IMG/VR virus record: IMGVR_UViG_3300034358_000002
Coordinates: 1-44,534 of that record
DNA length: 44,534 nucleotides
Strand: one strand, 5' to 3'
Source: a virus
This document shows positions 16,206 to 34,821 of this stretch, piece after piece. The number at the start of each line of letters is the position of its first letter. Position 1 is the first letter of the stretch. The position numbers and the translations under genes were made by a program. The notes under the pieces were generated by a model, which did no database searches, was not told the DNA's origin, and saw only the letters and a program-made list of their open reading frames with translations.

Positions 16206-16428
16206 AGGCGACACGGTGCGTCTGGTGCGTGCGGCTGTGTGCTGGATGCAGGCGGATCGCCGCAACATCGGCAAGCATGGCGAAGTCACGGAGGTTATAC
16301 GCGACGGTAGCCTCACGTACTATGAAGTGACCCTGAGCAACGGTGTGACTGAACATGCCGAGGCGCAGGCCCTGACCATCGTGCGGCGCTGTACTCGCAC
16401 TTCATCCAAGCGGGAGTTACAAGCATGA
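16189..16428 (+). CDS. Unknown early protein, KOW/SH3-like
   Basis: 79 residues with KGDTVRLVRA, GKHGEVTEV and YYEVTLSNG, a Gly-punctuated strand order like KOW or SH3 barrels seen in RNA-binding and transcription factors. It overlaps the next gene (ATGA) and carries a CTGTACTCGCA site near its end. A binding role is inference. Confidence 0.7.
   Translation: MSKVSKGDTVRLVRAAVCWMQADRRNIGKHGEVTEVIRDGSLTYYEVTLSNGVTEHAEAQALTIVRRCTRTSSKRELQA
16389..16399 (+). promoter_or_regulatory. CTGTACTCGCA site 1
   Basis: Exact copy, inside the end of the 16189 gene (read there as C-T-R), 25 bases before the next start codon at 16425. Confidence 0.5.
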
Positions 16429-16823
16429 GCTTGCCAGTGGCTTTGAATAGCGTAGAACGTAGTCAAGCGCTTCGCTTCCTGTGGACGCTAAAGCGTCGGG
16501 AGACTCCGTTCGACCAGACCATGCACACAGGCCGGGGTATATGCCACCAGATGACGGTAGCTCGGGATCAGGGCTGGCTGAGCTACCGGGGTATCACCGA
16601 GCTGAAGTACTGGATGCTGCACTGGCCGGAGTATTCTGGCTCACCGGGCTATCCAGTCCCCGCGCCTAAATCCATCGGGATCTCTCCGGCAGCTACGGCG
16701 GAGTACTGGTACGACCAGCATGCGGCACCATTCGGCCAGATGTGGTCGGGCAAATACGGCGGAACTCGTATCCGCCTGCTGAACTTCCTGATCCGCACGC
16801 TGGAGGCGCAAGATGCTGAATAA
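16425..16823 (+). CDS. Unknown early protein, 132 residues, Trp/Tyr-rich
   Basis: Starts within the previous stop (ATGA) and overlaps the next gene by 11 bases. The protein has many Trp and Tyr (YRGITELKYWMLHWPEY) and an Arg-rich C-terminal helix. No membrane segment or known motif is visible. Confidence 0.72.
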   Translation: MSLPVALNSVERSQALRFLWTLKRRETPFDQTMHTGRGICHQMTVARDQGWLSYRGITELKYWMLHWPEYSGSPGYPVPAPKSIGISPAATAEYWYDQHAAPFGQMWSGKYGGTRIRLLNFLIRTLEAQDAE

Positions 16824-16992
16824 GCCGCTCAAGAAGTATGTGCTCGTGAACCTTGACGGGAACACGTGGCCGCTCGGGGAAGATAACCCAGCCATCCTGT
16901 TCAACAGCAAGGGGAAGGCACTCAAGCGCGCCAAGAAGGTGTACGCTGAGACGTCTAAACTGTGGTCTGTGCACGAGGTGCGCCGGAAATGA
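16813..16992 (+). CDS. Small basic early protein, 59 residues
   Basis: The ATG has GGAGG seven bases upstream, within the end of the previous gene, and the stop overlaps the next ATG (ATGA). The Lys-rich product begins MLNKPLKKYVLVNLDGNTWP and ends HEVRRK. Strong coupling on both sides supports it as a gene. Confidence 0.68.
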   Translation: MLNKPLKKYVLVNLDGNTWPLGEDNPAILFNSKGKALKRAKKVYAETSKLWSVHEVRRK

Positions 16993-17240
16993 ATTTGATC
17001 CACAAATCGAAGTCGGAGGGTATACCCTTCGATTCACTAGTGGTCGGGCAAGTGTATCGAGACTTAATGCCCAGCTCCCGACTGCTGGTGTACATGGCCT
17101 GTACGAACCCTGGGCACAACGGTAAGCCTAAGGTGGATTTCCTCCTGAACATGGAGACAGGCTGCCGAGTGGTACCGTCGATTACACGGCAGTACGGCTT
17201 CAAGCACCTCCCTAACGCAACCCTGAACACAGGTGAATAA
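16989..17240 (+). CDS. Unknown early protein, 83 residues
   Basis: Uses the ATG overlapping the previous stop (ATGA); an upstream in-frame GTG lies inside the previous gene. The protein shows short strands and turns (SLVVGQVYRDLMPSSRLLVY). It is followed after one base by the next start. Family unknown. Confidence 0.68.
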   Translation: MNLIHKSKSEGIPFDSLVVGQVYRDLMPSSRLLVYMACTNPGHNGKPKVDFLLNMETGCRVVPSITRQYGFKHLPNATLNTGE

Positions 17241-17241
17241 C

Positions 17242-17730
17242 ATGGCAATCCCTACTGGCAAGAAACGCAAGGCACTGGAACGGGTAGCACGCTGGCTCGA
17301 AGCTGGTGCGCCGCATCGTGACGATAACGGCGTGGAGACTCATGGCTTTAATATGAGCTTCGCTGTGGCTACGGGTGAGTACGGCCATGGCGTTGATCTC
17401 GGCAATAACTGCGGCACGGTGTGCTGTATCGCCGGTGCAGTGTGTCAGTTCCAGCGTATCCCATTCGCAGACTTCGGCGGTTTCTTCTCCGCCAACTCCG
17501 GCCCCGGTACTGTGGCACAGGAGTACCTCGGCCTATCTGATAGTGAGGCCCGCTACCTGTTTATGCCTTTCGACTACCACGAATCCCATGGCATGGACTA
17601 CACGCCGGCCATGGGTGCCGCTACAATCCGCAACTTCCTACACACAGGTGACGTGGTATGGGAGTACGCCGACGGCACTGTGGTTAAGAACGGCAAGGGC
17701 GGCTACACCGCCTCCAGCACCTTCGACTAG
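17242..17730 (+). CDS. Unknown early protein, Cys- and His-containing
   Basis: 162 residues with AGGTGA five bases before the ATG. A cluster GNNCGTVCCIAGAVC (about 54-68) and H/D-rich FDYHESHGMDY (about 109-119) could bind metal. The N-terminus is basic (GKKRKALERVARW). I do not recognise the family. Confidence 0.72.
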   Translation: MAIPTGKKRKALERVARWLEAGAPHRDDNGVETHGFNMSFAVATGEYGHGVDLGNNCGTVCCIAGAVCQFQRIPFADFGGFFSANSGPGTVAQEYLGLSDSEARYLFMPFDYHESHGMDYTPAMGAATIRNFLHTGDVVWEYADGTVVKNGKGGYTASSTFD

Positions 17731-17731
17731 C

Positions 17732-17742
17732 CTGTACTCGCA
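17732..17742 (+). promoter_or_regulatory. CTGTACTCGCA site 2
   Basis: Exact copy, intergenic, directly after the 17242 gene's stop and 125 bases before the ATG at 17868. A 10-base inverted repeat lies between it and that gene. Confidence 0.55.
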
Positions 17743-17761
17743 CTAGATAAGTGAGTTCGTC

Positions 17762-17822
17762 ATGCACACTGTCCCTGATAAGGCCGCAGCCCCGGCTGAT
17801 CCCGGCGCGAGGCAGTGTGCAT
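17762..17822 (+). ncRNA. Leader hairpin with perfect 10-base stem
   Basis: ATGCACACTG at 17762-17771 pairs exactly with CAGTGTGCAT at 17813-17822. The 41-base interior can form GGCCG/CGGC pairs. It lies in the untranslated leader of the 17868 gene, downstream of CTGTACTCGCA site 2. It could stabilise or regulate the mRNA. Confidence 0.45.
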
Positions 17823-17867
17823 GTCGGGCAACCTTCCGCCCAACAACTATTACACAGGAGATACACC

Positions 17868-18281
17868 ATGTCCGAAGCACAAACCGCAGCCCTGACCCTC
17901 GTTCGTAAGCCAGTTACCTCGGCTGACTTCAAGCAGAACGCTGAGTTCTACTTCGCCGCCGCCAACAAGGCTACCGTGGTGTACAACGATGCGCTCGCAG
18001 CGTACCAGCACAGCGTGAAGCTGGAGTCGGTGGGTACTGGTACCGACATCGTGTTCAACGAAGGCAAGGGCGACACTGCGCAGGTACTGTCCGGCAAGGT
18101 GCTGGCCCGTCTGGAAGATGGCAAGTACCAAGTGCTTATCCAGTTCGTCGGCGAGAAGGCACGCCTGATCGAAGTCAAGCCGTCCGACATCAAGGCCGTG
18201 CGTGATGAGGCGGTCGAGGTGCAGGTAAGCGAGGAGCCTGTCGAGGCTCCAGCCGTAACTCCGGAGTTCGATGCTCAGTAA
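17868..18281 (+). CDS. Unknown acidic early/middle protein
   Basis: 137 residues with an AGGAGA site nine bases before the ATG and a long structured leader. The front is helical (DFKQNAEFYFAAANKATVVY), the middle has strands (KVLARLEDGKYQVLIQFVG), and the tail is Glu/Pro-rich and flexible (EEPVEAPAVTPEFDAQ). Its strong site, separate leader and following hairpin suggest high expression. It shares the MSEAQ start with the 26814 protein, which may be chance. Confidence 0.75.
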   Translation: MSEAQTAALTLVRKPVTSADFKQNAEFYFAAANKATVVYNDALAAYQHSVKLESVGTGTDIVFNEGKGDTAQVLSGKVLARLEDGKYQVLIQFVGEKARLIEVKPSDIKAVRDEAVEVQVSEEPVEAPAVTPEFDAQ

Positions 18282-18295
18282 GCGATAGCGTTTGT

Positions 18296-18325
18296 AAAGC
18301 ACCTAGCGTATTCGCCGGGTGCTTT
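18296..18325 (+). terminator. Hairpin after the 17868 gene
   Basis: AAAGCACC and GGTGCTTT form an eight-base stem with a 14-base loop, 15 bases after the stop. No long U run follows. It is a plausible terminator or mRNA-stabilising end. Confidence 0.45.
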
Positions 18326-18357
18326 GCAGGTGACTATCCATAACGCAGGAGAATCAA

Positions 18358-18369
18358 ATGCGAACGTGA
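18358..18369 (+). other. Minimal frame Met-Arg-Thr with a good ribosome site
   Basis: CAGGAGAATCAA stands before ATG CGA ACG TGA. The site is nearly identical to that of the 18689 gene (AGGAGAATCACC), but the frame is three codons long. It may be a remnant of a lost gene or a ribosome-holding leader in the 190-base gap before 18472. Confidence 0.35.
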
Positions 18370-18424
18370 GCCCGCAGGCAAGCAACCGGCCCGCCTATAT
18401 GCACGCCGGTCAGAGGAGTTAGTC

Positions 18425-18447
18425 GGTGGCCTTCCAAGAGGGCCACC
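18425..18447 (+). other. Hairpin GGTGGCC / GGCCACC
   Basis: Seven-base perfect GC-rich stem with a nine-base loop, 24 bases before the 18472 start. Its position suggests mRNA processing or stability. Confidence 0.4.
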
Positions 18448-18471
18448 CGCTAAACGAACTGGAGCTACATC

Positions 18472-18678
18472 ATGTCAATCGTCCGCACCTTCAACGGTGG
18501 CTATGTGGCCGTCGGGAGTAAGCTGAGCATCACTAGCGGCACCTCCAGTGAGGTGCGGGGTTACATCCTCGAACGTGAGGAACGTGATCGTGAACGCCGC
18601 AAATCGTACCGGAAGTCCCGGAGCATTCGCCCCGGCGCTACTGGGGACATCTTCAAAGAATACAACCCAACCTGCTAG
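18472..18678 (+). CDS. Small basic early/middle protein
   Basis: 68 residues with GGAG eight bases before the ATG. After a beta-like front (MSIVRTFNGGYVAVGSKL) comes a highly charged stretch (EREERDRERRKSYRKSRS) that should be helical or disordered and could bind RNA or DNA. Family unknown. Confidence 0.7.
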   Translation: MSIVRTFNGGYVAVGSKLSITSGTSSEVRGYILEREERDRERRKSYRKSRSIRPGATGDIFKEYNPTC

Positions 18679-18688
18679 GAGAATCACC

Positions 18689-19120
18689 ATGTCCAAGAAT
18701 AACCGTATGCACGTAGTAGCGCTGCAAACCACCGTTGCGCAACTCACCTCCGATAAAGCCGCGTTAGCGCAGGCACTAGGTGAACTGGGTTACTGCCACG
18801 ATCAGCAGACCGCATTCATTACCGCCAGCATGTCCGGTGCCGATGGTGTGATCTCGCAAGCCACCTTGCTGGCCGAGGCTAAAGCTGCCCTCGCGGAAGC
18901 AGTGAGCACGAACAAGACCCTGTGCGACGACATCGAGTTCCAGGAGTTTCGCTTCGAGGGGCAGAAGCAACTGGTGGGTCAGCTCGGTAAGACCTGTGCG
19001 GACTTGACCAAGCAGATCGTGGAACTCACTAGCAGCCGTCACTGGTCCCGCGTTGCCGCTATCGCAGCGGTGGCTGTACTCGCAATCGGTGCGTGCTACC
19101 ACTTGAATGGGGTGCTGTGA
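18689..19120 (+). CDS. Tail-anchored coiled-coil membrane protein A
   Basis: 143 residues with AGGAG nine bases before the ATG. Heptad-rich helices fill most of the length (LTSDKAALAQALGELG, AEAKAALAEAVSTNKTL, LGKTCADLTKQIVELTSS). One C-terminal membrane span ends the protein (VAAIAAVAVLAIGACY, about 122-137). The long cytoplasmic part with a C-terminal anchor is like the next gene's product, to which it is joined by a one-base TGATG overlap. They may act together at the inner membrane. Function unknown. Confidence 0.72.
   Translation: MSKNNRMHVVALQTTVAQLTSDKAALAQALGELGYCHDQQTAFITASMSGADGVISQATLLAEAKAALAEAVSTNKTLCDDIEFQEFRFEGQKQLVGQLGKTCADLTKQIVELTSSRHWSRVAAIAAVAVLAIGACYHLNGVL
19074..19084 (+). 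promoter_or_regulatory. CTGTACTCGCA site 3
   Basis: Exact copy, within the membrane-span codons of the 18689 gene (read there as V-L-A), 35 bases before the next ATG at 19120. Confidence 0.5.
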
Positions 19121-19542
19121 TGGGCCAGTGCAAAACTCGGGGCTGCACCTCGTGGGCCAAGCAGGGCCACTGGTACTGCTATCAGTGCTACCGCGCATGG
19201 CAGGTGGAGATGGGGCGCATCGCTGCACCCACTGAGCAGCATACAGCGAACGTCTGCGTAGGTGCTGAGCAACTGGCTGAGAAGGATGCCCAGATCTCCG
19301 TGCTACATGCCGAGGTGGCTGCGCTTGAGCGTACTGTACGGGCTATTCGCGGCACTCCCTGCCAGTGCCCCAGCAACAACGTGCACCCATCCGCCCAGAC
19401 TGGTGAGTACGTCCCACGTTCCCGCCAACTGGACCGGATCGAGAGCCTCGCCAAGCAGGGCGCCTCCCGCAGCGTGTTCTGGCCGTGCCTCGCAACATTC
19501 CTCGTCACCATCAGCCTGATCTACGGGCCTCAATTGGTATGA
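19120..19542 (+). CDS. Tail-anchored protein B with zinc-finger-like N-terminus
   Basis: 140 residues. The start overlaps the previous stop (TGATG). The N-terminus has C4, C9, C20 and C23 (CKTRGC and CYQC), a likely zinc site. A coiled-coil stretch follows (EQLAEKDAQISVLHAEVAAL), then a CQCP loop and a C-terminal membrane span (FWPCLATFLVTISLIYG, about 120-136). The zinc, coil and anchor order in a small phage protein is unusual. A membrane-linked complex with protein A is inference. Confidence 0.72.
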   Translation: MGQCKTRGCTSWAKQGHWYCYQCYRAWQVEMGRIAAPTEQHTANVCVGAEQLAEKDAQISVLHAEVAALERTVRAIRGTPCQCPSNNVHPSAQTGEYVPRSRQLDRIESLAKQGASRSVFWPCLATFLVTISLIYGPQLV

Positions 19543-19546
19543 ACAA

Positions 19547-20125
19547 ATGCAAATCATCAACCGTCACTTCTTCAACCAGCCCGGTGAAGACCCAAACTAC
19601 TTCGCGAGAGTCTACGGTGCAGCACGTCGCTTCCACAAGCACCGCGCTTCACTTGACACTCAAGCCGAGCTGATCTGTACTGTAGCTCAGGCGTACTGGA
19701 AGTACATCCAGGCGGCGGATCCTCTGGGCAGTCGTGACTTCGTGAAGCGCCTGTTCTGGCAGTCTCGCTGCCGGGTACGGGTGGCTGTGGAGTACGATGT
19801 GACTCTCGGCGGCTATATCGTGCTTAACGGGGAACTGAAGGCGTTGTGGTCGGATCGTTCGGGCCTTGGCCGAAAGTTGATTGTCGACGCCATCAAACAG
19901 GGTGCGTATAAACTCACCTGCTTCGATGGGTACCTCGTAGGTCTGTACTCGCAGTTCGGATTCGAGGTTGTCAGCCGCGAGCCTAATTGGGTCGAGGGTG
20001 GCCCGGACTGTGTGCGTATGGAACTGCGCGCCAGTTGCCGCAGCAGTCACTGCGAGTGTAGTGAATCTGACCGGGCACACTGTGACGCGAAGCTGGAAGA
20101 CCGACAGCGAGCCGACAGGGTATGA
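19547..20125 (+). CDS. GNAT acetyltransferase-like protein
   Basis: 192 residues. The segment LWSDRSGLGRKLIVDAIKQG (about 101-120) looks like the acetyl-CoA loop and helix of GNAT enzymes. FDGYLVGLYSQFGFEVVSR after it is the typical strand-helix-strand end. The last 35 residues are Cys/Asp/Arg-rich and look disordered. GNAT-like proteins occur early in several T7-like phages; the substrate is unknown. The ribosome site is poor. It carries CTGTACTCGCA site 4. Confidence 0.65.
   Translation: MQIINRHFFNQPGEDPNYFARVYGAARRFHKHRASLDTQAELICTVAQAYWKYIQAADPLGSRDFVKRLFWQSRCRVRVAVEYDVTLGGYIVLNGELKALWSDRSGLGRKLIVDAIKQGAYKLTCFDGYLVGLYSQFGFEVVSREPNWVEGGPDCVRMELRASCRSSHCECSESDRAHCDAKLEDRQRADRV
19943..19953 (+). 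promoter_or_regulatory. CTGTACTCGCA site 4
   Basis: Exact copy, inside the GNAT-like gene (read there as L-Y-S-Q), 211 bases before the primase start. Confidence 0.5.
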
Positions 20126-20164
20126 TGATCCACCTCTACCACTGCCTTATGATGGGGTTGCATT

Positions 20165-21031
20165 ATGGCGGGTTTACCCCTGAAGGATTGGCTGCAATAT
20201 GCCAAGCGTCTTCCAATCGGCCAGACCCAGCGTCTGCGCCACCAGTGCCCAGGCCGGGTGCGCAGCACGAACGCCACGAACATGGTGGTGTCGAACAAGC
20301 AGGATCGGTACGTGGCGTACTGCCAGAGCTGCCGGAAGGGCGGTGTGGAGATGAAGACGCATGTGCGCCTAGTCTCCGTGCCCGACCAGCACAGGTTCAT
20401 GCCGTGGCCCGACGATGCTGTGAACTGGCAGGATGTCGAACAGGCACCTGCCTTGCGTGCCTTGCTACTCGACAAAGGAATCGACGCGCAAGTAATGTGT
20501 CCAGACCAAGTGATCTGGTACAGCAAACGGCAACAGAGGTTGCTATTCGGCACAGCGCTTGGATGGATAGGACGTGCAGCGGCTGGCCAGAGCCCGAAAT
20601 GGACTGGTTATGGCTATCCCTCGCCGGCATACCACAAACATCCCGCCGATGATTGGAAGGATGTTTGGGTTGTAACAGAGGATTACCTGAGTGCCTTGAA
20701 GGTGCGATGGGCGACCCCTGAATTCACGGCTGTAGGACTGTGCGGCACTGCAATGCCAGATGCACTAGGAGCACAGCTCGTGAAGCAACAACCGACTCTA
20801 GTGGTCACGTTCATGGACGGCGATAAGGCCGGACGCGACGGGGCGGTTAGGGTCGCTCACCGGGTCCGAGGGTTGGGCTTTGAGTGCGTAGATATTGCGA
20901 CACCTGAAGGCTGCGATCCTAAGGACCTTCACCAGCAACAACTGAGGGACTTGATTCATGGAGCTGTTAACACTGCACGCTCTGCGCGACAAGCAGAAGT
21001 ACAAGATGCTGCGCGGTGCCGTCCCGACTGA
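20165..21031 (+). CDS. DNA primase
   Basis: 288 residues. A possible zinc site is near the front (H26, C28, C53, C56). The TOPRIM fold shows TEDYLSALK (E172) and VTFMDGDKAGRDG (D218, D220), the acidic residues that hold catalytic metals. It makes RNA primers at the fork. Primase and helicase are separate genes here as in phiKMV, unlike the fused T7 gp4. Its last 74 bases overlap the helicase gene in another frame. Confidence 0.9.
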   Translation: MAGLPLKDWLQYAKRLPIGQTQRLRHQCPGRVRSTNATNMVVSNKQDRYVAYCQSCRKGGVEMKTHVRLVSVPDQHRFMPWPDDAVNWQDVEQAPALRALLLDKGIDAQVMCPDQVIWYSKRQQRLLFGTALGWIGRAAAGQSPKWTGYGYPSPAYHKHPADDWKDVWVVTEDYLSALKVRWATPEFTAVGLCGTAMPDALGAQLVKQQPTLVVTFMDGDKAGRDGAVRVAHRVRGLGFECVDIATPEGCDPKDLHQQQLRDLIHGAVNTARSARQAEVQDAARCRPD

Positions 21032-22238
21032 GATGTTAGGTGGCGAAGCTGTCATGGTGCTGAACTGGTACCAGCAGTACTTCAACGCGTTCCCCGACGA
21101 GACTGCCGTGGATGTACAGGGCCTGATCTCCCTGATTAAGCTGCGCTCCGGGTATGATGCGAACACGATGGCGATGGTGATGCACATCATCGGCAAGCTG
21201 GAGGCACCGTACAATCAAGCGCTGATTGACGGCGTGGTGAATCAACTGATCGAGCTGGACTTCTCGGGTAAGGTGGCGCAGTTGGTGAGCGCGTACCAGA
21301 ACAACGAGGAGGTAGGTGATGGCCTTGCGTATGAGGTGGCAAGGCTGGCGCAGCAGTCCCTGCGAGAGCAGGGTGTCTCGGCCCCGACGGATTACATCAC
21401 TGAAGACGTGATGACGATCCTCGACGACGAGGCAGGGGACCACGGTATCAAGCTGCCCACGACTGCGCTGAAGCTGTACGTGAAGGGCCTGCTTGGGGGT
21501 GCATCCATCTTGGTAGCCGCGCCGCCTGACGCAGGTAAGACGAGCCTGTTAGCCTGCATTGCCGCTGAAGCTGCACCGCAGATCCCCACGTACTTCCGTG
21601 AGGACCGTCCGATCCTGTGGCTGAACAACGAGGGCAAGGGTCGCCGTATCATCCCGCGCCTGTATCAGGCCGTGTTAAAGGTAGACCTCGATACCCTGCA
21701 CAAGATGGGTAACGCCGGTACCCTGCATGATGCGTACACAAAGGCCATTGGTGGCCGGGCTGACCGCATCCGTATCAAGGACTTCCATGGCGGTAGCTTG
21801 GCGCAGGCCGAGCAGATCATCGAGCAGATGAAGCCGTGCATGGTGATCTGGGACATGCCTGCGAACATCAAGTTCAAGGGCTCAGGTCAAGGCGGGAACA
21901 AGACCGACATCCTCGAAGAGAAGTGGCAGGAGATCCGTGAGATGGCCTGCCGCCACGACTTCATCAGCGTGGGTACCTGTCAGATCAGCGTGGAGGGGCG
22001 TAACAATCTGCATCCTCCGCAAGAGGCGCTGAAGGACTCGAAGACGGCAATTCAAGGCGCGGTCGATGTACAGATCCACCTCGGCGCGATGACTGGCGCA
22101 GGCTACCAAGACCTGCGCGGCATCAGCACGCCGAAGAACAAATACCAAATGCCCGGCATGTCCTCGAACTTCGAGGCCACCGTCGGGTTCAACGCAGCAC
22201 AATGTCAATTCGTAGACGGAGAGGTGGCTCATGCGTGA
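20958..22238 (+). CDS. Replicative DNA helicase, DnaB/RecA-type
   Basis: 426 residues. Walker A is PPDAGKTS (K194) and Walker B ends with D299 in VIWDM. A helical N-terminal domain (1 to about 150) resembles DnaB-type primase-contact domains. LWLNNEGKGRR after the first motif and VGTCQISVEGRN (about 335) complete the RecA-like core. It unwinds the fork ahead of the polymerase. The start lies within the primase gene and the end overlaps the nucleotidyltransferase gene. Confidence 0.88.
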   Translation: MELLTLHALRDKQKYKMLRGAVPTEMLGGEAVMVLNWYQQYFNAFPDETAVDVQGLISLIKLRSGYDANTMAMVMHIIGKLEAPYNQALIDGVVNQLIELDFSGKVAQLVSAYQNNEEVGDGLAYEVARLAQQSLREQGVSAPTDYITEDVMTILDDEAGDHGIKLPTTALKLYVKGLLGGASILVAAPPDAGKTSLLACIAAEAAPQIPTYFREDRPILWLNNEGKGRRIIPRLYQAVLKVDLDTLHKMGNAGTLHDAYTKAIGGRADRIRIKDFHGGSLAQAEQIIEQMKPCMVIWDMPANIKFKGSGQGGNKTDILEEKWQEIREMACRHDFISVGTCQISVEGRNNLHPPQEALKDSKTAIQGAVDVQIHLGAMTGAGYQDLRGISTPKNKYQMPGMSSNFEATVGFNAAQCQFVDGEVAHA

Positions 22239-22788
22239 TCTCACTGAGTGGTTCCAGAAGAACAAGCCGGAGGAGCTGGGCAAATTCAGCAGCCTCCTGC
22301 TCCAGCTTGACGCTAACGTACCCGCCCAGGGTGGGGTAGCCCTTGCCGGTGGGTACCTGCGGGATCTGTACTTCGGTAAGGCGCCGAAGGATATGGACTT
22401 CGTGTTCTACGGCCTGAATCCAGTACAGTTCCTCGCGGCTGTGACTATGTGGTTCGAGCGCATCCCCGGCGAATTCTCTTACGAGGTATTCGACGCAGAC
22501 TACAATGGCAACGATACGGACATCCTCTCCGTGGTCAAGGTGACTTGGGAAGGTCAGGCCATCGACCTGATCCTGTACAACTCGAACAGTATCACAGGGG
22601 CACTCCAGCGTTTTGACCACAGCCTGAACGAATTCTACGCCACCTACGATAGCGACTTTCGCCTGCGGGTTGGGCATCGTGATGGCTGGGGCGTCTGTAC
22701 TCGCAATCCGTATGTGGACTTGACACAGGAGCGCGTAGATCGGATGCGGGAATACGCACGCTACATTGACTGGGAGTACGTGGCATGA
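22231..22788 (+). CDS. Nucleotidyltransferase-like protein (poly(A) polymerase head-type)
   Basis: 185 residues. The motif LAGGYLRDLYFGKAPKDMDF has G40-G41, R44-D45 and D54-x-D56, matching the polymerase-beta-type core of CCA-adding enzymes and poly(A) polymerases. The protein is only the head domain, with no tRNA-binding body. It may act on RNA ends or nucleotides, but the substrate cannot be told. It sits between helicase and ligase with overlaps on both sides and carries CTGTACTCGCA site 5. Confidence 0.75.
   Translation: MRDLTEWFQKNKPEELGKFSSLLLQLDANVPAQGGVALAGGYLRDLYFGKAPKDMDFVFYGLNPVQFLAAVTMWFERIPGEFSYEVFDADYNGNDTDILSVVKVTWEGQAIDLILYNSNSITGALQRFDHSLNEFYATYDSDFRLRVGHRDGWGVCTRNPYVDLTQERVDRMREYARYIDWEYVA
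22695..22705 (+). promoter_or_regulatory. CTGTACTCGCA site 5
   Basis: Exact copy, inside the nucleotidyltransferase gene (read there as C-T-R), 79 bases before the ligase start. Confidence 0.5.
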
Positions 22789-23720
22789 GTAAGCGCGATG
22801 TTGAGCTAGTAGTTAAACCCTGGCGCGGTGTGGATTGGAATGAAAAGGCAGTCGCCAAGCGCCTTGAGCAAGGCTCGCTGTGGATGGGTCCAAAGGTTGA
22901 CGGTGTGCGTCTGCATCTGATCGCCGGAAGCTGCGGTGAGATCATCGCGCTGAGCCGCGCCGGCAAGAAGTTCCCCGCGCTGGGTGCGCATGCCTTGATC
23001 CATATCGGGCGCCAACTGGACCTCAATGCCATGCTCTACGGGAGCCGTGCGCTCGACTGTGAGCTGTGGATCGACGGATTGCCGATGGAGAAGGCCAACG
23101 GTCGCTTGAGTGAGCACCGCGACATCGACGGCGACGAGCTGGCCAACCTCCGCATCATGGTGTTCGATGCACCTACCGTGGAGGAGTTGCAAGGTCTGAG
23201 CAGTACCGGCGACACCCTGCACCGACGCCGTAGCTTTGCGAACGCCATCATCAAGCACGGGCATCAGATCTCACTGGAGTCGCTGGCCGAGGTGCGTAGC
23301 CTCGAAGACATCGAGGCCCTGTACGAGGACCTGCGACTCTTCGGCTATGAGGGCGGCATGGTTAAGGACAGCGACCTCCCGTACCGCAATGGCAAAGTGT
23401 CCGGTATCTGGAAGCGCAAGCCAAAGATCAATGTGGATGGTGTCATCACTGGCTACGTCTGGGGCGAACCTGACAAGGCCAATGCGGGTAAGATCGTGGG
23501 CTTCCAGATCAAACTGGAGAACGGTGTGACTATCCGCGCCACGGGCCTGACTGTGGCGCAGATGGATGAGTTCACCTTCGCCTTGGAGTTGGACCCAACC
23601 GCCTACATCGGGCGCCAAGCCGAGGCCACTGCAATGGAGTACACCGCCGCTGGTGCCCTCCGCCACCCATCGTTCAAGCGCTTCCGCGACTTGGACACTG
23701 ATCCGGGAGTCAAGGTATGA
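22785..23720 (+). CDS. ATP-dependent DNA ligase
   Basis: 311 residues. Motif I is K37-V-D-G-V-R, with K37 the AMP-accepting lysine. EGGMVKD (about 189-195) is motif IV and WKRKPK (about 209-214) is motif V. An OB-fold follows (VDGVITGYVWGE onward). It seals Okazaki fragments and nicks. Its length is in the range of small phage ligases. It overlaps both neighbours by four bases (ATGA). Confidence 0.92.
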   Translation: MSKRDVELVVKPWRGVDWNEKAVAKRLEQGSLWMGPKVDGVRLHLIAGSCGEIIALSRAGKKFPALGAHALIHIGRQLDLNAMLYGSRALDCELWIDGLPMEKANGRLSEHRDIDGDELANLRIMVFDAPTVEELQGLSSTGDTLHRRRSFANAIIKHGHQISLESLAEVRSLEDIEALYEDLRLFGYEGGMVKDSDLPYRNGKVSGIWKRKPKINVDGVITGYVWGEPDKANAGKIVGFQIKLENGVTIRATGLTVAQMDEFTFALELDPTAYIGRQAEATAMEYTAAGALRHPSFKRFRDLDTDPGVKV

Positions 23721-23914
23721 GCATCGAAACCCTGAGCCGACGTTGCAGCCAAGTGCCTAGCGATAGCCTTGAATGCGACCTGGTGGCTGGCACCATCTAC
23801 ATCGGGGCCTATGTGGCCGGCGAGCAGAATGACATCGCCATCACAGCAGAGACGGCCCGTGAGTTCGCTGAGTGGCTGGAGCGTGCGGCCTTGGTTGCGG
23901 AGCAGTCGGAATGA
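23717..23914 (+). CDS. Small unknown protein, 65 residues
   Basis: Lies between ligase and the next small gene with ATGA overlaps on both sides. Acidic product with a strand pair (CDLVAGTIYIGAYVAG) and a helix (TAREFAEWLERAALVAEQ). Family not recognised. Confidence 0.72.
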   Translation: MSIETLSRRCSQVPSDSLECDLVAGTIYIGAYVAGEQNDIAITAETAREFAEWLERAALVAEQSE

Positions 23915-26594: not shown

Positions 26595-26602
26595 GAGGCA
26601 CT

Positions 26603-26770
26603 ATGAAACTGCACTTCCGCTTCGACTCCGCACCCGGCCCGCAGGGCCCTCGATTGATTGAGGTGGAGGACGCTGACGGCAATAGCGTATGCGCAGGAAC
26701 GTGGGAGCAGGACCCCGCATCCGAGGACTGGTTCCTCGTAGTGGAGATGGATGCACCCGTAACTCCGTAA
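26603..26770 (+). CDS. Small acidic protein after the polymerase
   Basis: 55 residues with AGGAGG five bases before the ATG. Acidic with a few strands (MKLHFRFDSAPGPQGPRLIE at the start, WFLVVEMDAPVTP at the end). CTGTACTCGCA site 6 begins two bases after its stop. Function unknown. Confidence 0.7.
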   Translation: MKLHFRFDSAPGPQGPRLIEVEDADGNSVCAGTWEQDPASEDWFLVVEMDAPVTP

Positions 26771-26772
26771 GC

Positions 26773-26783
26773 CTGTACTCGCA
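26773..26783 (+). promoter_or_regulatory. CTGTACTCGCA site 6
   Basis: Exact copy, intergenic, 30 bases before the ATG of the 26814 gene. In this copy GTAC-TCGCA-GTAC also makes a small palindrome. Confidence 0.55.
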
Positions 26784-26813
26784 GTACCTTTCTTAAATCT
26801 GTAGGAGATCCAC

Positions 26814-28766: not shown

Positions 28767-28974
28767 CCTGCGGTTCGAGTGGCAGGTAGACCTCAACGAG
28801 GAGGGCCGTATGGAGCTGAGGTGCACATCGAGTCGCCGGCCTGCCAGCGGCCTTAAATATCAGGTGGTGTACGTGACTTCTACCCCGGTAGATCAGGTAG
28901 ACCTATTCACCAGCGTCCATGGCGTACGGCGCGAACATGTGGCCGCATGGTCTAAGGAGGTGAGTGTTGTCTAA
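28747..28974 (+). CDS. Small unknown protein, 75 residues
   Basis: AGGAG nine bases before the ATG inside the exonuclease gene end. A beta-rich small protein (LRFEWQVDLNEEGRMELRC, LKYQVVYVTST). It overlaps the start of the endonuclease gene. Family unknown. Confidence 0.68.
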   Translation: MPQVSSDLRFEWQVDLNEEGRMELRCTSSRRPASGLKYQVVYVTSTPVDQVDLFTSVHGVRREHVAAWSKEVSVV

Positions 28975-29392
28975 CCCAGTCGCGTACAAGATCCCACGCA
29001 GCCAGCAGCGTACGTTTGTGTTCAAGCTGCACAAGGAGCAGGGCGGCATCTGTCCACTCTGCCAGCGTGGCATCGATCTGAAGATCAAGGGTGAGGCGGT
29101 GATGGACCATTGCCACGAGACGGGACTTGTGCGGGGCATCCTGCATCGGTCGTGCAACGCGGCGGAAGGCAAGGTGGCCAACGCAGCGGGGCGCTGGGGT
29201 GCGAAGACCATGGACTACGAGTCGGGTGTGATCCCGTACTTGGAGAATTTGGTGGCGTACCTGAAGCGGCCCAAGCACAATCTGATCTACCCATCGCACC
29301 TCACCCCTGAGGAGCAGAAGGATAAAGCTAACCTGAAGCGCCGTTCAGCGGCTGCTGCAAAGAAGGCGGTCATTGCTGCCAAGGGGCTATAA
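28964..29392 (+). CDS. Endonuclease VII-type Holliday junction resolvase
   Basis: 142 residues. C30-x2-C33 and H61-x2-C64 form the zinc site, and D48-H49-C50-H51 in between is the His-Me (HNH-like) active site. N65 in CNAAEGK is also typical. It cuts branched DNA before packaging, like T7 gp3 or T4 gp49. The start is GTG 28964 or TTG 28967; AGGAGG at 28955 fits the TTG slightly better. It overlaps the next gene (TAATG). Confidence 0.9.
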   Translation: MLSNPVAYKIPRSQQRTFVFKLHKEQGGICPLCQRGIDLKIKGEAVMDHCHETGLVRGILHRSCNAAEGKVANAAGRWGAKTMDYESGVIPYLENLVAYLKRPKHNLIYPSHLTPEEQKDKANLKRRSAAAAKKAVIAAKGL

Positions 29393-30609
29393 TGAGTCGT
29401 ATTGAATGCAAGTACACCCAGACGCCTAATGGCGGTATCGTAGGTGAGTACCGCTGGGTAGATGCCGCGACTGGTAAAGTGTACCAGTACGAAACCTCGG
29501 AAGGCGCCCAAACTGCTGACGGTACGCATGTTCGGGCAATTCTAAATGCTGATGGAAGCTACAGTTTTAAAAGTTCGACGTGGCCTGACAAGCAATTTGT
29601 GTTAACCCCAACCCACAAGCAAGAGGTTCCATTGACTGACTCCAAGTGCCCTATCCGTTCCCAGTTCACCGACCAGCAAGTGCGCGATGCGTACGACTTG
29701 TCCGGCAAGAGCGTTAAGCGTACAGCGGAGGCCCTCAGCATTGAAGGTGGCGTATCCGTTTCCCGCCAACTCTGCCGATTCTGGTTGAAGGGCCTCAAAC
29801 TGCACACGGGTAAGGTTGCCGCTGGCAAGAAGTCGCCACGTGTGCTGCTAATCGACATCGAGACTGCGCCGATCTTGGCGTACGTGTGGTCGCTCTGGAA
29901 ACAGAACGTCGGCTTGAACCAGATCAACAACGAGTGGTACATCCTGAGCTTCTGCGCCAAGTGGCTGGGCGAACCGGAGGTCATTTACAAGGACATCCGC
30001 GACACCCCGCACGATGACTCCAGCCTGATGCAGCCGCTGTGGGATCTGCTGAACGAAGCCGACATCATCATCGGCCAGAACGGCAAGGCATTTGACATGC
30101 CGAAGATCCAAGCTCGGCTCATCATGGCCGGTCACTTGCCGCCGCGTCCGTACAAGGTGATCGACACCCTGCTCATGGCGAAGCAGCAGTTCCGCTTCAC
30201 CTCGAACAAGCTGGAGTGGATGACTGGCGAGACTGCTGGCCTGACCACTGTGTCGAAGTCCAAGCACAGCAAGTTCCCAGGCTTTCTCCTGTGGTCCGAG
30301 TGCCTGAAGGGCAACCCGGAAGCATGGGACGAGATGAAGGAGTACAACATCCCCGACGTCACGTCGATGGAGGAGCTGTACATCAAGTTGCGCCCATGGT
30401 ATGTCGGTCATCCGAACATGGCCGTGTACTTGGACACCGACAAGATCGCCTGCCCGAAATGCGCCAGCCACGATGTGGTGCAGGACGGCTTCACGTTCAC
30501 GCAGGTCGGCAAGTACGAACTGTACAAGTGCAACGGTTGCGGCGGCTTCAGCCGTGGGCGCTATACTCGCAATTCAACCAGCGTGCGTAAAGCACTGCTA
30601 TCTAACTGA
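29392..30609 (+). CDS. DEDDy 3'-5' exonuclease with zinc ribbon
   Basis: 405 residues. The core is of RNase H-like/DnaQ type: LLIDIETAP (D155, E157), GQNGKAFDMP (D235) and YNIPDV (Y318, D322). Before it (about 90-135) is a helix-turn-helix-like stretch (DQQVRDAYDLSGKSVKRTAE). The end has a zinc ribbon, C354-x2-C357 and C380-x2-C383. Such stand-alone exonucleases occur in many T7-like phages. It could trim DNA or RNA ends or complement proofreading; the target is unknown. The first 90 residues have an AT-richer patch. Confidence 0.82.
   Translation: MSRIECKYTQTPNGGIVGEYRWVDAATGKVYQYETSEGAQTADGTHVRAILNADGSYSFKSSTWPDKQFVLTPTHKQEVPLTDSKCPIRSQFTDQQVRDAYDLSGKSVKRTAEALSIEGGVSVSRQLCRFWLKGLKLHTGKVAAGKKSPRVLLIDIETAPILAYVWSLWKQNVGLNQINNEWYILSFCAKWLGEPEVIYKDIRDTPHDDSSLMQPLWDLLNEADIIIGQNGKAFDMPKIQARLIMAGHLPPRPYKVIDTLLMAKQQFRFTSNKLEWMTGETAGLTTVSKSKHSKFPGFLLWSECLKGNPEAWDEMKEYNIPDVTSMEELYIKLRPWYVGHPNMAVYLDTDKIACPKCASHDVVQDGFTFTQVGKYELYKCNGCGGFSRGRYTRNSTSVRKALLSN
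30561..30571 (+). promoter_or_regulatory. CTGTACTCGCA site 7 (one mismatch)
   Basis: CTATACTCGCA, inside the end of the exonuclease gene (read there as Y-T-R), 47 bases before the ATG at 30619. Confidence 0.4.
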
Positions 30610-30618
30610 GGGGACACC

Positions 30619-31158
30619 ATGCGAGAGTACAAAGTAGTCGAATGCCCTGGCAACAAAAAGCATGCAGGTAAAGTGGGTACCCTCAGCGAGCTTGGCGTTT
30701 TCGTGGACCACAGCAACTCCTGCCGGTTTGAGGGTCTATACAACATTGGCCCCGGCCTGTACAAGAACGCCAACCTCACTATGGTGGCTGAGATTGTCGA
30801 GCCGACGGGTTGCTCTGGTGTTGAGGCTATACAGCCCGGACAGGCCTTTAAGGAAGACGACGGCAAGCCAAACTGGTACCTGCTGATGTCCGCCAAGGGC
30901 TGCGCCTCCGCGCTGGCCGGCGTTGTACGAGTTCTGTCCTTCGCTGTTCGTGCGAAGGACAAGGGTGGCAAGGGCTACATTGAGCATAGCTGGCGCGAAG
31001 TCCCTAATGGCAAGGAGCGCTACGAGGCCGCGCTGTACCGGCACCTAAGCAAGGTCCATCTCGGGGAGTTGGTGGATGATGAGTCCGGGGAATCCCACTG
31101 GGCACATATCGCCACGAACGCCTTGTTCTTGGCTGAGCTGCACAAGTCCCGTGAATAG
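30619..31158 (+). CDS. dATP/dGTP diphosphohydrolase-domain protein
   Basis: 179 residues. The second half follows the pattern of the dATP/dGTP diphosphohydrolase N-terminal family: KPNWYLLM (about 83), ALAGVVRVLSFAVRAK, then YEAALYRHLSKVHLGE, DDESGESHWAHIATNALFLAEL. This MazG-like helical fold has conserved Glu/Asp/His that hold metals. It may adjust the nucleotide pool. Some phages with this family make diaminopurine DNA, but no PurZ-like gene is seen here. The first half (1-75) is an unassigned strand domain. Confidence 0.72.
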   Translation: MREYKVVECPGNKKHAGKVGTLSELGVFVDHSNSCRFEGLYNIGPGLYKNANLTMVAEIVEPTGCSGVEAIQPGQAFKEDDGKPNWYLLMSAKGCASALAGVVRVLSFAVRAKDKGGKGYIEHSWREVPNGKERYEAALYRHLSKVHLGELVDDESGESHWAHIATNALFLAELHKSRE

Positions 31159-31366
31159 CTACATCCTAGTGGCGGAGCGCAACTCCGCCACAGACCCAGA
31201 ACTCCCGGACTACCACTTCGTTGCCCGCAGTGATGCGGAGGCGTTCGATGCAATCCGGGTGGACCTGCGGTCCCGCAAAGAATCCTCAGGTGATATTGAG
31301 TTTCACCTGTATCGCACAACCCACCTAGGGAGTCTGTATGGACCTGAATTTCTTGAAGATGAATGA
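31151..31366 (+). CDS. Small unknown protein, 71 residues
   Basis: GTG start overlapping the previous gene by eight bases. The upstream in-frame ATG at 31076 would duplicate coding DNA of the previous gene. Alpha/beta layout (MNSYILVAERNSATD, ARSDAEAFDAIRVDLRS). The site before the GTG is weak. Confidence 0.62.
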   Translation: MNSYILVAERNSATDPELPDYHFVARSDAEAFDAIRVDLRSRKESSGDIEFHLYRTTHLGSLYGPEFLEDE

Positions 31367-31502
31367 GCGCTGGTTCCGGGCTGAGATCATCAGCATCAGC
31401 GAGTTCCGCGAGTACCGAGCCGGTAGCGTAGATGAAGCTGCTGTATTGGCCGCCGAAGAGTTCGGCGAAGACGACATTGGCCGCGTAACCCAGAAACGCT
31501 GA
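31338..31502 (+). CDS. Small acidic protein upstream of RNA polymerase
   Basis: 54 residues with GGGAG about eight bases before the ATG. Starts MDLNFLKMNERWFRAEIIS and ends DDIGRVTQKR. It overlaps the previous gene by 29 bases and ends seven bases before the RNA polymerase start. Its layout (strand then acidic helix DEAAVLAAEEFGE) resembles the 31151 product. Function unknown. Confidence 0.62.
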   Translation: MDLNFLKMNERWFRAEIISISEFREYRAGSVDEAAVLAAEEFGEDDIGRVTQKR

Positions 31503-31509
31503 GGAACCT

Positions 31510-33960
31510 ATGACCGACCTGATTGCCCTCCAAATCGAACACGAAGACAACCTGCACGGGGAGGCTGTGGATAATGCGAAGACACGTCTCCAGCAGGCGC
31601 TGGAGGGCGGTCAGTTGGACAGGGTGCCACGAGCACGGGTCCTGATGCTGCGCCTGTTCCAGCAGACACAGGAGGCGATCCAGCGAGAGATCGACGGCAA
31701 GGCAGCAGGGCCGGCGGCGAACCTCCGCCATATCCTGCGAGCCCTGCCGGCTGATGTGTCTGCGGCGCTGGCGCTGCGTACGGGGCTGATGATGGTCATG
31801 CGCGGTGATCGGGTAGGGGTTGTGTCTGTAATGGCTGCAATCGGCTCACAGGCCCTGAAGGAGATCGAGGTGCGCACGGCTATCAGCCTGAATAGCGCGT
31901 ACTACGACCGCACCCTTGAGTACCTGCGAACCAGCGGTACCGTGAGCCCACGGCACATCGCGAAGACCATGCAGGCTGTGGTGAACGCCGTGGTGCCTGA
32001 GAGCGCACGTATGGAGCTGTCTCAGACGGATCTGGTGAAGTTCGGGAAGTTCTTCTTTGACCCACTGATCGAGTGCGGCTTACTGGAGACGGTGCGCTCC
32101 TCGAACAAGGGCGGCACGGTAGTGTCGGTGGTCCCGTCCGAGGAGGCCCGGAAGTTCCTGATTGAGTCCGAGGTGATCAGCCTCTGGGGCGGCGTAGGGA
32201 CGTCTGTGTGCCTAGCCCCGCCTATCCCATGGACTTCAGTGTTCGAGGGCGGCTACCACACGGAGAGGACGCGGAAGGCGCACTTGTTCCTACGGCGATC
32301 CAAGCACCAGACACGGAAGGCCCGACAAGTACAGCTCCGGGCGGCTACTCTGGACAAGATGCCGAAGGTGTTTCAAGCTGCGAACTACTTGCAGTCGATC
32401 CAGTACGAGATTGACCCTGCGATGTTTGCCACGATCCAGACGATCTGGCATGAGGGCGGTGGCGCCCTCGGGGTGCCTACAAAGACATTCCGAGACAAGC
32501 CTGAGTTCCCCTTCCAAGAAGCTTGGGAGAAGGCACAGGCATCTCCTGGGGAGCTGGAGGGGTTCAATGCTTGGAAACGACGAGTTCACCGATGGCACAC
32601 AGCGAGCACAAAGCACCGCGCAGCTCAACGTGACTTTGGCGCACTGTATAGAGTTGTGCAAAAGCACCACGGAACAGGCATTTGGTTCCCTTGCCATGTC
32701 GACAGCCGGGGGCGGTTCTACTATTGGGGTTCCCCGAATCCCCAAGGAACCGATATGGCTAAAGCCTGCCTCCGGTTCCGCACGAAGAAGGCACTGGGTA
32801 GACGTGGTGTCTTCTGGCTTAAAGTACAGATTGCTAATACCTACGGTGCCGATACGGGTGAGTTTGCCGAGCGGGCTGCTTGGACGGAACATCGACTGGA
32901 TGATCTTCGACGAGTTAGCGCTGAAGGAGCCGACTCCGAGTTCTTGGCAGATGCAGACTCCCCGCTATGCTGCTTGGCGGCAATCCGCGAACTCCTCGCT
33001 GCGATTGACAGTGGCGCACCCGAGTCGTTTAAGTCTGGCCTTATCATCCACATGGACGCCACCTGCTCTGGATTGCAGCACTTCTCTGCCCTCCTGCGAG
33101 ATCCTGTGGGCGGGCAGTACGTCAACCTCGTCAACCCAGGGAAGTCCAAGGCGGACATCTATCAGCGAGTTCTGGACCTATCCATGGCCCGGCTCCGTGC
33201 TGAACTGGTGGCCGGTGATGCTGACACCGCCGCTTACGCTAACCTGTGGCTGAGCTACATCGAAGCAGGGAAGGGTCGCAAGCTGGCCAAGGGGCCGTGC
33301 ATGACGCTGGTGTACGGTACGACGTTCCGTGGGATCGTAGACCACTGCCTTGACTGGCTTGAGGATAACGGGCACACGGTACCTAAGGGAGTCCCTGCGC
33401 TTGCGCTGGCAGGGCATATGACCCGTACCCTACTGGATGCTATCCGTGAGACGGTACCGGCTGCTGTAGCGGCCATGGAGTGGCTCCAGTCACTTGTGCG
33501 CAAGGTGGACAAGGACGGTGTGATCTACTGGGAGACGCCGCTGGGTATGCAAGTATTCCAGCAGTACCCTGTGATGAACGACACCCGAGTGCGCCTCCGT
33601 AGCCTAGCCACCGAGTTCGCTATCGTTAAGGAAGCCACAGACGTACTAGACATCAGGAAGTCCGCCAACGGCATCTCACCGAACTTCGTACACGGTCTGG
33701 ACAGTGCGCACCTAGGTGGGACAGCTATCCGTATGGAGGAGTCCCAGTGCGAGATGTCGGGTATCCATGACTCTGCTGGGACACACGCTTGCGATGTGGA
33801 TACCATGCACATCCACCTGCGGGCAGAGTTCTTCGAGATGTACGAGCGCAAGTGCTGGTTGACTGAGTTGCGAGATGGCTTAGGGTTAGATACTCCTGTA
33901 CCTGTCCGTGGTTCTCTTGACCTAAGTAAGGTGAAATCCTCCTGGGCTTTCTTCTGTTAA
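31510..33960 (+). CDS. Phage single-subunit DNA-directed RNA polymerase
   Basis: 816 residues, against 883 for T7 and 816 for phiKMV. Catalytic motifs: MDATCSGLQHFSALLRD (D516, equivalent to T7 D537), KGPCMTLVYG (K594 and Y602, equivalent to K631 and Y639), and NFVHGLDSAHL (D731, H734, equivalent to the D812 motif). The C-terminus ends SWAFFC where T7 has FAFA. It transcribes the late genes from phage promoters. Its place just before the head genes, not among the early genes, marks the phiKMV-like plan. GAGGAA precedes the ATG. Confidence 0.97.
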   Translation: MTDLIALQIEHEDNLHGEAVDNAKTRLQQALEGGQLDRVPRARVLMLRLFQQTQEAIQREIDGKAAGPAANLRHILRALPADVSAALALRTGLMMVMRGDRVGVVSVMAAIGSQALKEIEVRTAISLNSAYYDRTLEYLRTSGTVSPRHIAKTMQAVVNAVVPESARMELSQTDLVKFGKFFFDPLIECGLLETVRSSNKGGTVVSVVPSEEARKFLIESEVISLWGGVGTSVCLAPPIPWTSVFEGGYHTERTRKAHLFLRRSKHQTRKARQVQLRAATLDKMPKVFQAANYLQSIQYEIDPAMFATIQTIWHEGGGALGVPTKTFRDKPEFPFQEAWEKAQASPGELEGFNAWKRRVHRWHTASTKHRAAQRDFGALYRVVQKHHGTGIWFPCHVDSRGRFYYWGSPNPQGTDMAKACLRFRTKKALGRRGVFWLKVQIANTYGADTGEFAERAAWTEHRLDDLRRVSAEGADSEFLADADSPLCCLAAIRELLAAIDSGAPESFKSGLIIHMDATCSGLQHFSALLRDPVGGQYVNLVNPGKSKADIYQRVLDLSMARLRAELVAGDADTAAYANLWLSYIEAGKGRKLAKGPCMTLVYGTTFRGIVDHCLDWLEDNGHTVPKGVPALALAGHMTRTLLDAIRETVPAAVAAMEWLQSLVRKVDKDGVIYWETPLGMQVFQQYPVMNDTRVRLRSLATEFAIVKEATDVLDIRKSANGISPNFVHGLDSAHLGGTAIRMEESQCEMSGIHDSAGTHACDVDTMHIHLRAEFFEMYERKCWLTELRDGLGLDTPVPVRGSLDLSKVKSSWAFFC

Positions 33961-33972
33961 ACCAAGCCTCTC

Positions 33973-33994
33973 CGGTTATGTCTCCCTTAACGGA
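33973..33994 (+). promoter_or_regulatory. TATGTCTCCCTTAACGGA element, copy 3
   Basis: 22 bases identical to copy 1, followed by GAG so that TCTCC/GGAGA can form a stem. It is enclosed in a longer stem CCGGTTATG/CATAGCCGG ending near 34017. Confidence 0.5.
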
Positions 33995-34096
33995 GAGAAG
34001 CGAGAGGCATAGCCGGTGGAGCGGATCGAAGGATAAGAGATAGAGTATAGTAGTATAAGAGTTACTATAGATATACCTTAATAGTATATAGGGAGA

Positions 34097-34115
34097 TTAT
34101 GTCTCCCTTAACGGA
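34097..34115 (+). promoter_or_regulatory. TATGTCTCCCTTAACGGA element, copy 4
   Basis: Exact core, 11 bases before the ATG of the 34127 gene. The GGAGA arm of the stem (34113-34117) is also the best ribosome site for that gene. GGGAGA at 34091 can pair with TCTCCC as a rival stem. Confidence 0.5.
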
Positions 34116-34126
34116 GAGAGATTAGA

Positions 34127-34372
34127 ATGGCCAGATTAGGGCGCAAAAGTAACCCTCCCGAATATGTCTCCCTTAACGGAGGAACAGCCAAGAGTTCGGC
34201 TCACCCTGTTTACTTCACCCCGGAACAGGTCAGATGGCTTGAGGAGACATTCCCCGAGCCTCAGATCACCCCGGACACTACGATGGAGACAATCCAGTAC
34301 GTAGCCGGCCAGCGCAAGCTGATCCACGCCATGCGAGCCCGTGTTCGCAATATGACCACGGTGCAGCTATGA
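34127..34372 (+). CDS. Small late protein, 81 residues
   Basis: First gene of the structural unit. Its ribosome site GGAGA is part of repeat copy 4, and its codons 13-18 (YVSLNG) are repeat copy 5. The product has a basic start (MARLGRKSNPP) and helices (TPEQVRWLEETFPEP, TIQYVAGQRKLIHAMRARV). It overlaps the next gene by four bases. Function unknown; possibly head assembly. Confidence 0.7.
   Translation: MARLGRKSNPPEYVSLNGGTAKSSAHPVYFTPEQVRWLEETFPEPQITPDTTMETIQYVAGQRKLIHAMRARVRNMTTVQL
34163..34180 (+). promoter_or_regulatory. TATGTCTCCCTTAACGGA element, copy 5 (inside the 34127 gene)
   Basis: Exact 18-base core inside coding sequence, read as YVSLNG in the same frame as copy 1. GGAGG in place of GGAGA shortens the possible stem. 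Confidence 0.45.
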
Positions 34373-34821
34373 GCATTCGAGTCGAGAACACCATCCGGTA
34401 CGCTGGGCAGTCCGCCCGTATCGCTGTACTCGCACTTCCCAGCATCCGCGAATTCAAGGAGCTGCGGCAGAACAAGGATATTCGTGAGGACGTACACCGC
34501 ATCGCTTCCAGCCTCGCGGAGTTCGACCGCACCGAGATCGTGATCTACGACGGCAACGCTGTTGTAGGTGGCGCTACCATCGTTCTTGACGATGACCAAC
34601 ACGTCGGCCCATGCTTGAGCCTGCAATGGCAGTACGTGCTCCCCGCGTACCGCCGCCTGCACTTAGGTCGCCACTTCGTCCGCGAGCTGCTACGGCAAGC
34701 TGGCTGGGCCGGTATCCGTAATGTGTCGTACTCCCACCGCACCGGTGAGGGGCAGTACACAATCACGTACCGAGAGGTAGAGCATGGGCAAGAAAGTAAA
34801 AAAGATTATCGGCAAGGCTAA
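34369..34821 (+). CDS. GNAT acetyltransferase-like protein of the structural unit
   Basis: 150 residues. IVIYDGNAVVGGATIVLDDD then SLQWQYVLPAYRRLHLGRHF (about 82-101) match strand 4 and the acetyl-CoA loop of GNAT folds. It sits directly upstream of the small head gene and portal. A similar small acetyltransferase-like gene is found at this place in several podophages. Whether it is packaged or acts on host proteins is unknown. It overlaps both neighbours and holds CTGTACTCGCA site 8. Confidence 0.65.
   Translation: MSIRVENTIRYAGQSARIAVLALPSIREFKELRQNKDIREDVHRIASSLAEFDRTEIVIYDGNAVVGGATIVLDDDQHVGPCLSLQWQYVLPAYRRLHLGRHFVRELLRQAGWAGIRNVSYSHRTGEGQYTITYREVEHGQESKKDYRQG
34424..34434 (+). promoter_or_regulatory. 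CTGTACTCGCA site 8
   Basis: Exact copy, inside the GNAT-like gene (read there as V-L-A), 349 bases before the next start. It is the last copy before the structural genes. Confidence 0.5.

Follow-up and report, generated by a model that had tools for sequence, protein, structure and literature searches.

Localized nicks in phage genomes have been known for about 50 years, and the literature gives neither their purpose nor the enzyme that makes them in the phiKMV group (PMC11780129, PMC3517423). For phikF77, phiKMV, LUZ19 and LKD16, a consensus of CGACxxxxxCCTA/CTCCGG has been reported for experimentally found nicks (Kulakov 2009, as quoted in PMC3517423). The nicks of phikF77 are reportedly repaired early and are back late in infection (PMC3517423), and phiKMV is reported as an isolate that lost one nick (PMC3072928). 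In an unrelated phage group, the words TACT/RTGMC (verified in phage tf) and WACTRTGAC (Rembedalsseter) mark the nicks (PMC3517423, PMC11780129), and in fHe-Kpn01 a nick at 7873 was located by a read peak and S1 nuclease (PMC7291057). Here we describe an 11-base word, CTGTACTCGCA, in the 44,534-nucleotide IMG/VR virus record IMGVR_UViG_3300034358_000002 (the window, by which we mean the whole stretch analysed), which is a complete, circularly permuted phiKMV-like genome of a Pseudomonas-type phage. Judged by its sequence and placement, this word most likely represents localized genome nicks, a known though poorly understood feature, in a new sequence version.

Seven copies of one word on one strand

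Across the window, CTGTACTCGCA has seven exact copies on the + strand and none on the - strand, as had been reported in an earlier account made from the letters of the window (the sequence-only reading). Two further + strand stretches differ from the word by a single base. Distances are in base pairs (bp) and genes are given as open reading frames (ORFs).

16389..16399, + strand: CTGTACTCGCA, candidate nick site 1, exact match in ORF 16189-16428, next start 26 bp on
17732..17742, + strand: candidate nick site 2, exact match, intergenic; an intergenic phiNV3 copy, at 5175, lies in broadly the same region
19074..19084, + strand: candidate nick site 3, exact match near the end of ORF 18548-19120
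19943..19953, + strand: candidate nick site 4, exact match in ORF 19547-20125; kept at phiNV3 7040
22695..22705, + strand: candidate nick site 5, exact match in the nucleotidyltransferase-like ORF 22231-22788; kept at phiNV3 9823
26773..26783, + strand: candidate nick site 6, exact match in the gap that follows the DNA polymerase gene; kept in phiNV3 (13948) and L011 (320)
34424..34434, + strand: candidate nick site 7, exact match in the GNAT-like gene 34369-34821; kept in L011 (7845), absent from phiNV3
30561..30571, + strand: CTATACTCGCA, one mismatch, over R-Y-T-R codons, probably protein conservation; LUZ19 has the same peptide in another DNA spelling
38238..38248, + strand: CTGTACTCGGA, one mismatch, within the capsid gene, with protein conservation as the probable reason; phiNV3, L011 and LUZ19 keep the coding stretch and vary the word

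Five of the seven exact copies lie within genes and two are intergenic (17732 and 26773), and the reading frames of the coding copies differ (C-T-R at 16389, V-L-A at 19074 and L-Y-S at 19943). When the copy at 30561 is counted with the exact ones, T stands at +2 after the core in 8/8 and C at +4 in 6/8. All of this agrees with the sequence-only reading. The expected number of CTGTACTCGCA copies is 0.03 under an order-3 Markov model and 0.15 under an order-5 model, and in 60 simulations per model no 11-mer of any kind exceeded four copies. Shuffling of synonymous codons (n=200) left two to four copies of CTGTACTCGCA, a count that includes the two intergenic copies, which were not shuffled.

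Chance or protein coding, as the source of the repeated word, does explain the imperfect copies. The sequence-only reading had treated 30561 as the only single-mismatch copy; it is confirmed, but 38238 is a second. These two and the near match at 9980 all lie in protein-conserved stretches, which explain them better than a role as sites does; we rejected them as functional copies, and consider it unlikely that they are sites. For the seven exact copies, chance or coding is already refuted by their spread over three frames and two intergenic gaps, by the ceiling of four copies in the shuffles and by the conservation of the word in phiNV3 and sister phages; as an account of CTGTACTCGCA it retains almost no probability. 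The shuffles and the conservation in relatives likewise support the earlier suggestion that selection acts on nucleic acid and not on protein.

Conservation in relatives and the nick-site reading

The sequence-only reading had proposed to look for the motif in related genomes, and we found it in phiNV3 and relatives. phiNV3 carries four exact copies of CTGTACTCGCA (5175, 7040, 9823 and 13948; 4/0 on the + and - strands), and those at 7040, 9823 and 13948 are direct counterparts of the window copies at 19943, 22695 and 26773. L011, a partial metagenomic relative, keeps the sites at 26773 and 34424 (its 320 and 7845). The 34424 site is absent in phiNV3; therefore sites are gained and lost.

At the place that corresponds to 26773, the gap behind the DNA polymerase gene, LUZ19 (14422) and phiKMV carry a different word, CCTACTCCGG; the remaining LUZ19 sites have no one-to-one correspondence to window sites. 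This Phikmvvirus word has three to four forward copies and no reverse copy in 7/7 records. phiKMV has one copy fewer than LUZ19, which matches its reported nick loss and which we counted in favour of a nick site. The copies of CTGTACTCGCA resemble the nicks of phikF77, LUZ19, phiKMV and LKD16 in occurring several times on one strand only, in the early and middle region, with the core TACTC. They differ in the word itself, which lacks the constant CGAC upstream, in number (seven versus three to four) and in that five are inside genes. With the nicks of tf and Rembedalsseter they share many one-strand copies, a bias to one half, a location mostly within genes and the core TACT, although the word after the core is different. 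CTGTACTCGCA, CCTACTCCGG and the tf nick word all contain TACT, and the first two contain TACTC.

A sister word, TG[C/T]ACT[C/T]GCA, is found in relatives from Achromobacter, Aeromonas and Cronobacter and in LKA1, almost only on the coding strand. Coding and reverse counts of the form TGCACTYGCA are 5/0 in each of the Achromobacter phages Axy21 and Axy23, 8/0 in both Ahp1 and phiAS7, 6/0 in GAP227 and 2/0 in LKA1; the T form occurs once on the reverse strand of phiAS7. VP93, PP16, KP34 and LIMElight have no sister-word set. The mapped nick of fHe-Kpn01 at 7873 falls in TCTGCACCTGCAGATG, close to the Ahp1 version.

On this evidence we propose, with a probability of roughly 0.65, that CTGTACTCGCA is a lineage-specific nick site read by a putative phage nickase. 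Each copy would receive a single cut on the + (coding) strand from a phage nuclease late in infection, which would leave the packaged DNA with some seven localized single-strand interruptions that ligase can seal, all within approximately the first half of the linear genome. Sealing on entry, early in the next infection, would then fall to the phage ligase (22785-23720) or a host ligase. The reported cuts are not at a constant distance from the core (tf is cut at TACT/ and phiKMV at CCTA/CTC), and hence the cut position in CTGTACTCGCA cannot be inferred. The sequence-only reading had listed the binding site of a phage protein among its candidate roles, and a nickase site fits that suggestion. 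A site bound without cutting by another phage protein, in replication or packaging, would also suit copies that keep to one strand and lie mostly in approximately the first half of the linear map, but no such protein is known and the sister motif is nicked (PMC3517423); we consider binding of this kind very unlikely.

Five of the seven exact sites lie at most 130 bp upstream of a start (9, 9, 26, 31 and 80 bp; permutation p 0.002), with distances that rest on our own gene calls. The sequence-only reading was therefore right about the siting upstream of starts, although its figure of six of eight sites at 25-130 bases depends on the starts chosen. The siting would be in keeping with a regulatory element of transcription or messenger RNA (pausing, antitermination, processing or translation control) that acts through the non-template strand or the RNA. 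In LUZ19, too, a gene begins shortly after each of the four sites. Strand bias alone cannot separate a DNA from an RNA role, because the genes of the window phage all seem to run in one direction and the bias fits RNA too. Yet the copies at 19943 and 34424 have no start in the 200 bp that follow them, and the equivalent word of LUZ19 and phiKMV is reported as a physical nick site (PMC3517423). Moreover, tf nick sites stay on the top strand even within reversed genes (sci13, sci14), which favours a DNA role in the tf group. A regulatory role for CTGTACTCGCA is, in our judgement, unlikely.

Several points weigh against a nick site. In the window phage and in phiNV3 it is a prediction from sequence, and the resemblance to the LUZ19/phiKMV nick word consists of a five-base core and a position. 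The Phikmvvirus consensus CCTACTCCGG (CGACxxxxxCCTACTCCGG) has no exact copy in the window, and only the core TACTC is common; since nicked groups differ in their word, this mismatch would limit the claim to a variant. The match in fHe-Kpn01 is one site, noticed after the fact, and the tendency of the sites to sit just upstream of genes is what a role in expression would also give. Furthermore, we know of no nickase. A gene-sharing comparison with tf for such an enzyme gave no specific candidate: common to tf are an early protein like LUZ19 gp3, a 5'-3' exonuclease and a dGTP_diPhyd_N protein, while endonuclease VII is found throughout the phiKMV-like panel and was not found in tf by the same search. 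To our knowledge, neither endonuclease VII nor the 5'-3' exonuclease is known for sequence-specific nicking, and endonuclease VII is a possible but unsupported nickase candidate.

Two minor observations concern these comparisons. The annotated tf nicks at 2102, 5267 and 20794 are each one base before a coding start (2103, 5268 and 20795), because TACT/RTG contains ATG or GTG. A DNA ligase gene is present in the genomes with several copies of the motif family, and VP93, PP16 and KP34/fHe-Kpn01, which are without the set, have no ligase in their annotation; this co-occurrence may be only shared descent.

A separate repeat as candidate RNA polymerase promoter

A second repeat, TTATGTCTCCCTTAAC followed directly by GGAG, is also confined to the + strand, and lies in three settings, which are the stretch behind the RNA polymerase (RNAP) gene, the approach to the early region and the gene for the internal core protein:

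33976..33995, + strand: TTATGTCTCCCTTAACGGAG, candidate RNAP promoter behind the RNAP gene, positioned as in KP34 (PMC6834552)
34097..34116, + strand: candidate RNAP promoter, copy 2, identical 20-mer
34162..34181, + strand: candidate RNAP promoter, copy 3, 1 mismatch
12357..12376, + strand: candidate RNAP promoter ahead of the early region, 3 mismatches
4262..4281, + strand: candidate RNAP promoter in the internal core protein gene, also coding a conserved peptide, 1 mismatch

KP34 was the first phiKMV-like phage whose polymerase had its promoters measured; the strong promoter, T[AG]ATGTTACAGGAGTA, occurs at three positions, 475, 22197 (immediately after the RNAP gene) and 33721 (within the gene for the internal core protein), and an in-silico repeat from the early region was inactive in vitro (PMC6834552). 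A matching layout, T[AT]ATGTnnC...GG, is found in phiNV3 (20874, 20996, 21063 and 35701), LUZ19 (21117, 21314 and 35592) and MR18 (19581, 19656 and 32647), and a sequence like it is present in VP93 (19867 and 31477). The copies behind the RNAP gene carry most of the argument, because the core-gene copy in Krylovirinae also codes a conserved peptide. We therefore give the TTATGTCTCCCTTAAC-GGAG repeats as predicted promoters of the encoded RNAP, a prediction set against measured promoters known only in KP34.

These repeats bear on the first role that the sequence-only reading had offered for CTGTACTCGCA, a promoter of the encoded single-subunit RNAP. The word is repeated, on one strand and often upstream of genes, and GenBank labels the equivalent motif in LUZ19, phiKMV and LKA1 as a promoter ('phage-specific promoter' for the LUZ19 and phiKMV copies). 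The putative 'phage promoters' of Ahp1 (TGCACTCGCAGA; PMC5014404, Table 3) are the same sister word, and both sister-word copies of LKA1 lie inside annotated 'phage promoters' (CTGCACTCGCAGC); the two are one-base variants of CTGTACTCGCA on the coding strand. However, the GenBank labels are predictions, and the annotation in Ahp1 and LKA1 is likewise by prediction only. It is the separate repeat that holds the positions of the verified KP34 promoters, and the early-region repeat of KP34 is a precedent for an in-silico promoter that proved inactive (PMC6834552). There is no CTGTACTCGCA at 33961-34126 behind the RNAP gene, where the other repeat occurs twice. In addition, five of the seven copies are inside genes, and six of the seven belong to the early and middle region, where transcription in phiKMV-like phages is the work of the host polymerase (PMC7552054). 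The 11-bp word is also shorter than the known promoters of this polymerase class (16-18 bp, starting with G, in KP34 and VSW-3). Both phages belong to the same general phage group and polymerase family; the KP34 promoters resemble TTATGTCTCCCTTAACGGAG in place and form, whereas neither those of KP34 nor those of VSW-3 (TTAATTGGGCCACCTATA) resemble CTGTACTCGCA. We regard a promoter role for CTGTACTCGCA as improbable. If CTGTACTCGCA is a nick site, polymerase activity is predicted for TTATGTCTCCCTTA (or TTATGTCACCCACATAGG) and not for CTGTACTCGCA (or CCTACTCCGG), and 5'-triphosphate ends in phiNV3 are predicted a little downstream of TTATGTCTCCCTTA and not at CTGTACTCGCA.

More tentatively, and at somewhat less than even odds, programmed nicking may be a trait common to several phiKMV-like lineages (Krylovirinae, Melnykvirinae and perhaps Drulisvirus). 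Each would read a separate form (CCTACTCCGG, CTGTACTCGCA or TGCACTYGCAG) of a single ancestral word, as though site and nickase evolved together. On this view the annotated 'phage-specific promoters' of LUZ19, phiKMV, LKA1 and Ahp1 would mark nicks, and the T[AT]ATGTnnC...GG repeats behind the RNAP gene would be the real promoters of these polymerases. With another word and a larger number of sites, a sister lineage would offer material for comparison in the search for the nickase and the rule of cutting, and telling nick words from likely true promoters would correct annotations that are possibly used for picking pairs of phage RNA polymerase and promoter.

Other promoter-like sequences were noted. 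A T7-style or VSW-3-style TATAG promoter was considered and rejected, as TATATAGGGAGA occurs as a single copy, at 34085 behind the RNAP gene. Also behind that gene, positions 34040-34095 (+ strand) are very AT-rich and contain TTAATAGTATATAGGGAGA, a single copy, which recalls the end of a T7 promoter. On the - strand, CAATACGACTCATTATAGCC (29385-29404) has 4 mismatches to the 20-base T7 promoter and overlaps the start of ORF 29392-30609; phiNV3 has nothing comparable to it, and with about 0.03 occurrences expected by rough estimate it is probably due to chance. phiNV3 carries a reverse-strand copy of the promoter-like repeat, TTATGTCTCCCTAA, near its left end (1032-1045, - strand).

Genome and relatives

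The first approximately 127 bases of the window (1-127) are repeated as the last (44408-44534); since the ends overlap, the assembly is circularly permuted and window position 1 is not a physical end. The phage is placed as phiKMV-like by its proteins, which are encoded in the order DnaB-like helicase, DNA polymerase, exonuclease, endonuclease VII and single-subunit RNAP, followed by the structural genes. Three genes are of concern here:

31510..33960, + strand: single-subunit RNAP gene (phrog_414, E 3.9e-226)
22785..23720, + strand: ATP-dependent DNA ligase-like gene, matching the annotated ligases of LUZ19, LKA1 and MR18
28964..29392, + strand: endonuclease VII-like gene (PF02945, E 3e-15)

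The nearest named relative is Pseudomonas phage phiNV3 (Krylovirinae, Kirikabuvirus), with identities to the window of 77% for RNAP and 89% for terminase; those of LUZ19 are 52% and 77-78%. Among viral contigs, a single-sequence RNAP query returned no relatives, RNAP alignment queries returned 10 and 12 loci, few of them near the window phage, and two DNA-pattern searches found no further close relative. Window position 14105 matches phiNV3 at about 2900, and by this synteny the seven candidate sites would span the interval from about 12 to about 52% of the linear map. Four sigma-70-type sites of the form TTGACA-17-TAnnnT stand in a row at 12881-13259 (+ strand), before the first early genes, as in other phiKMV-like phages.

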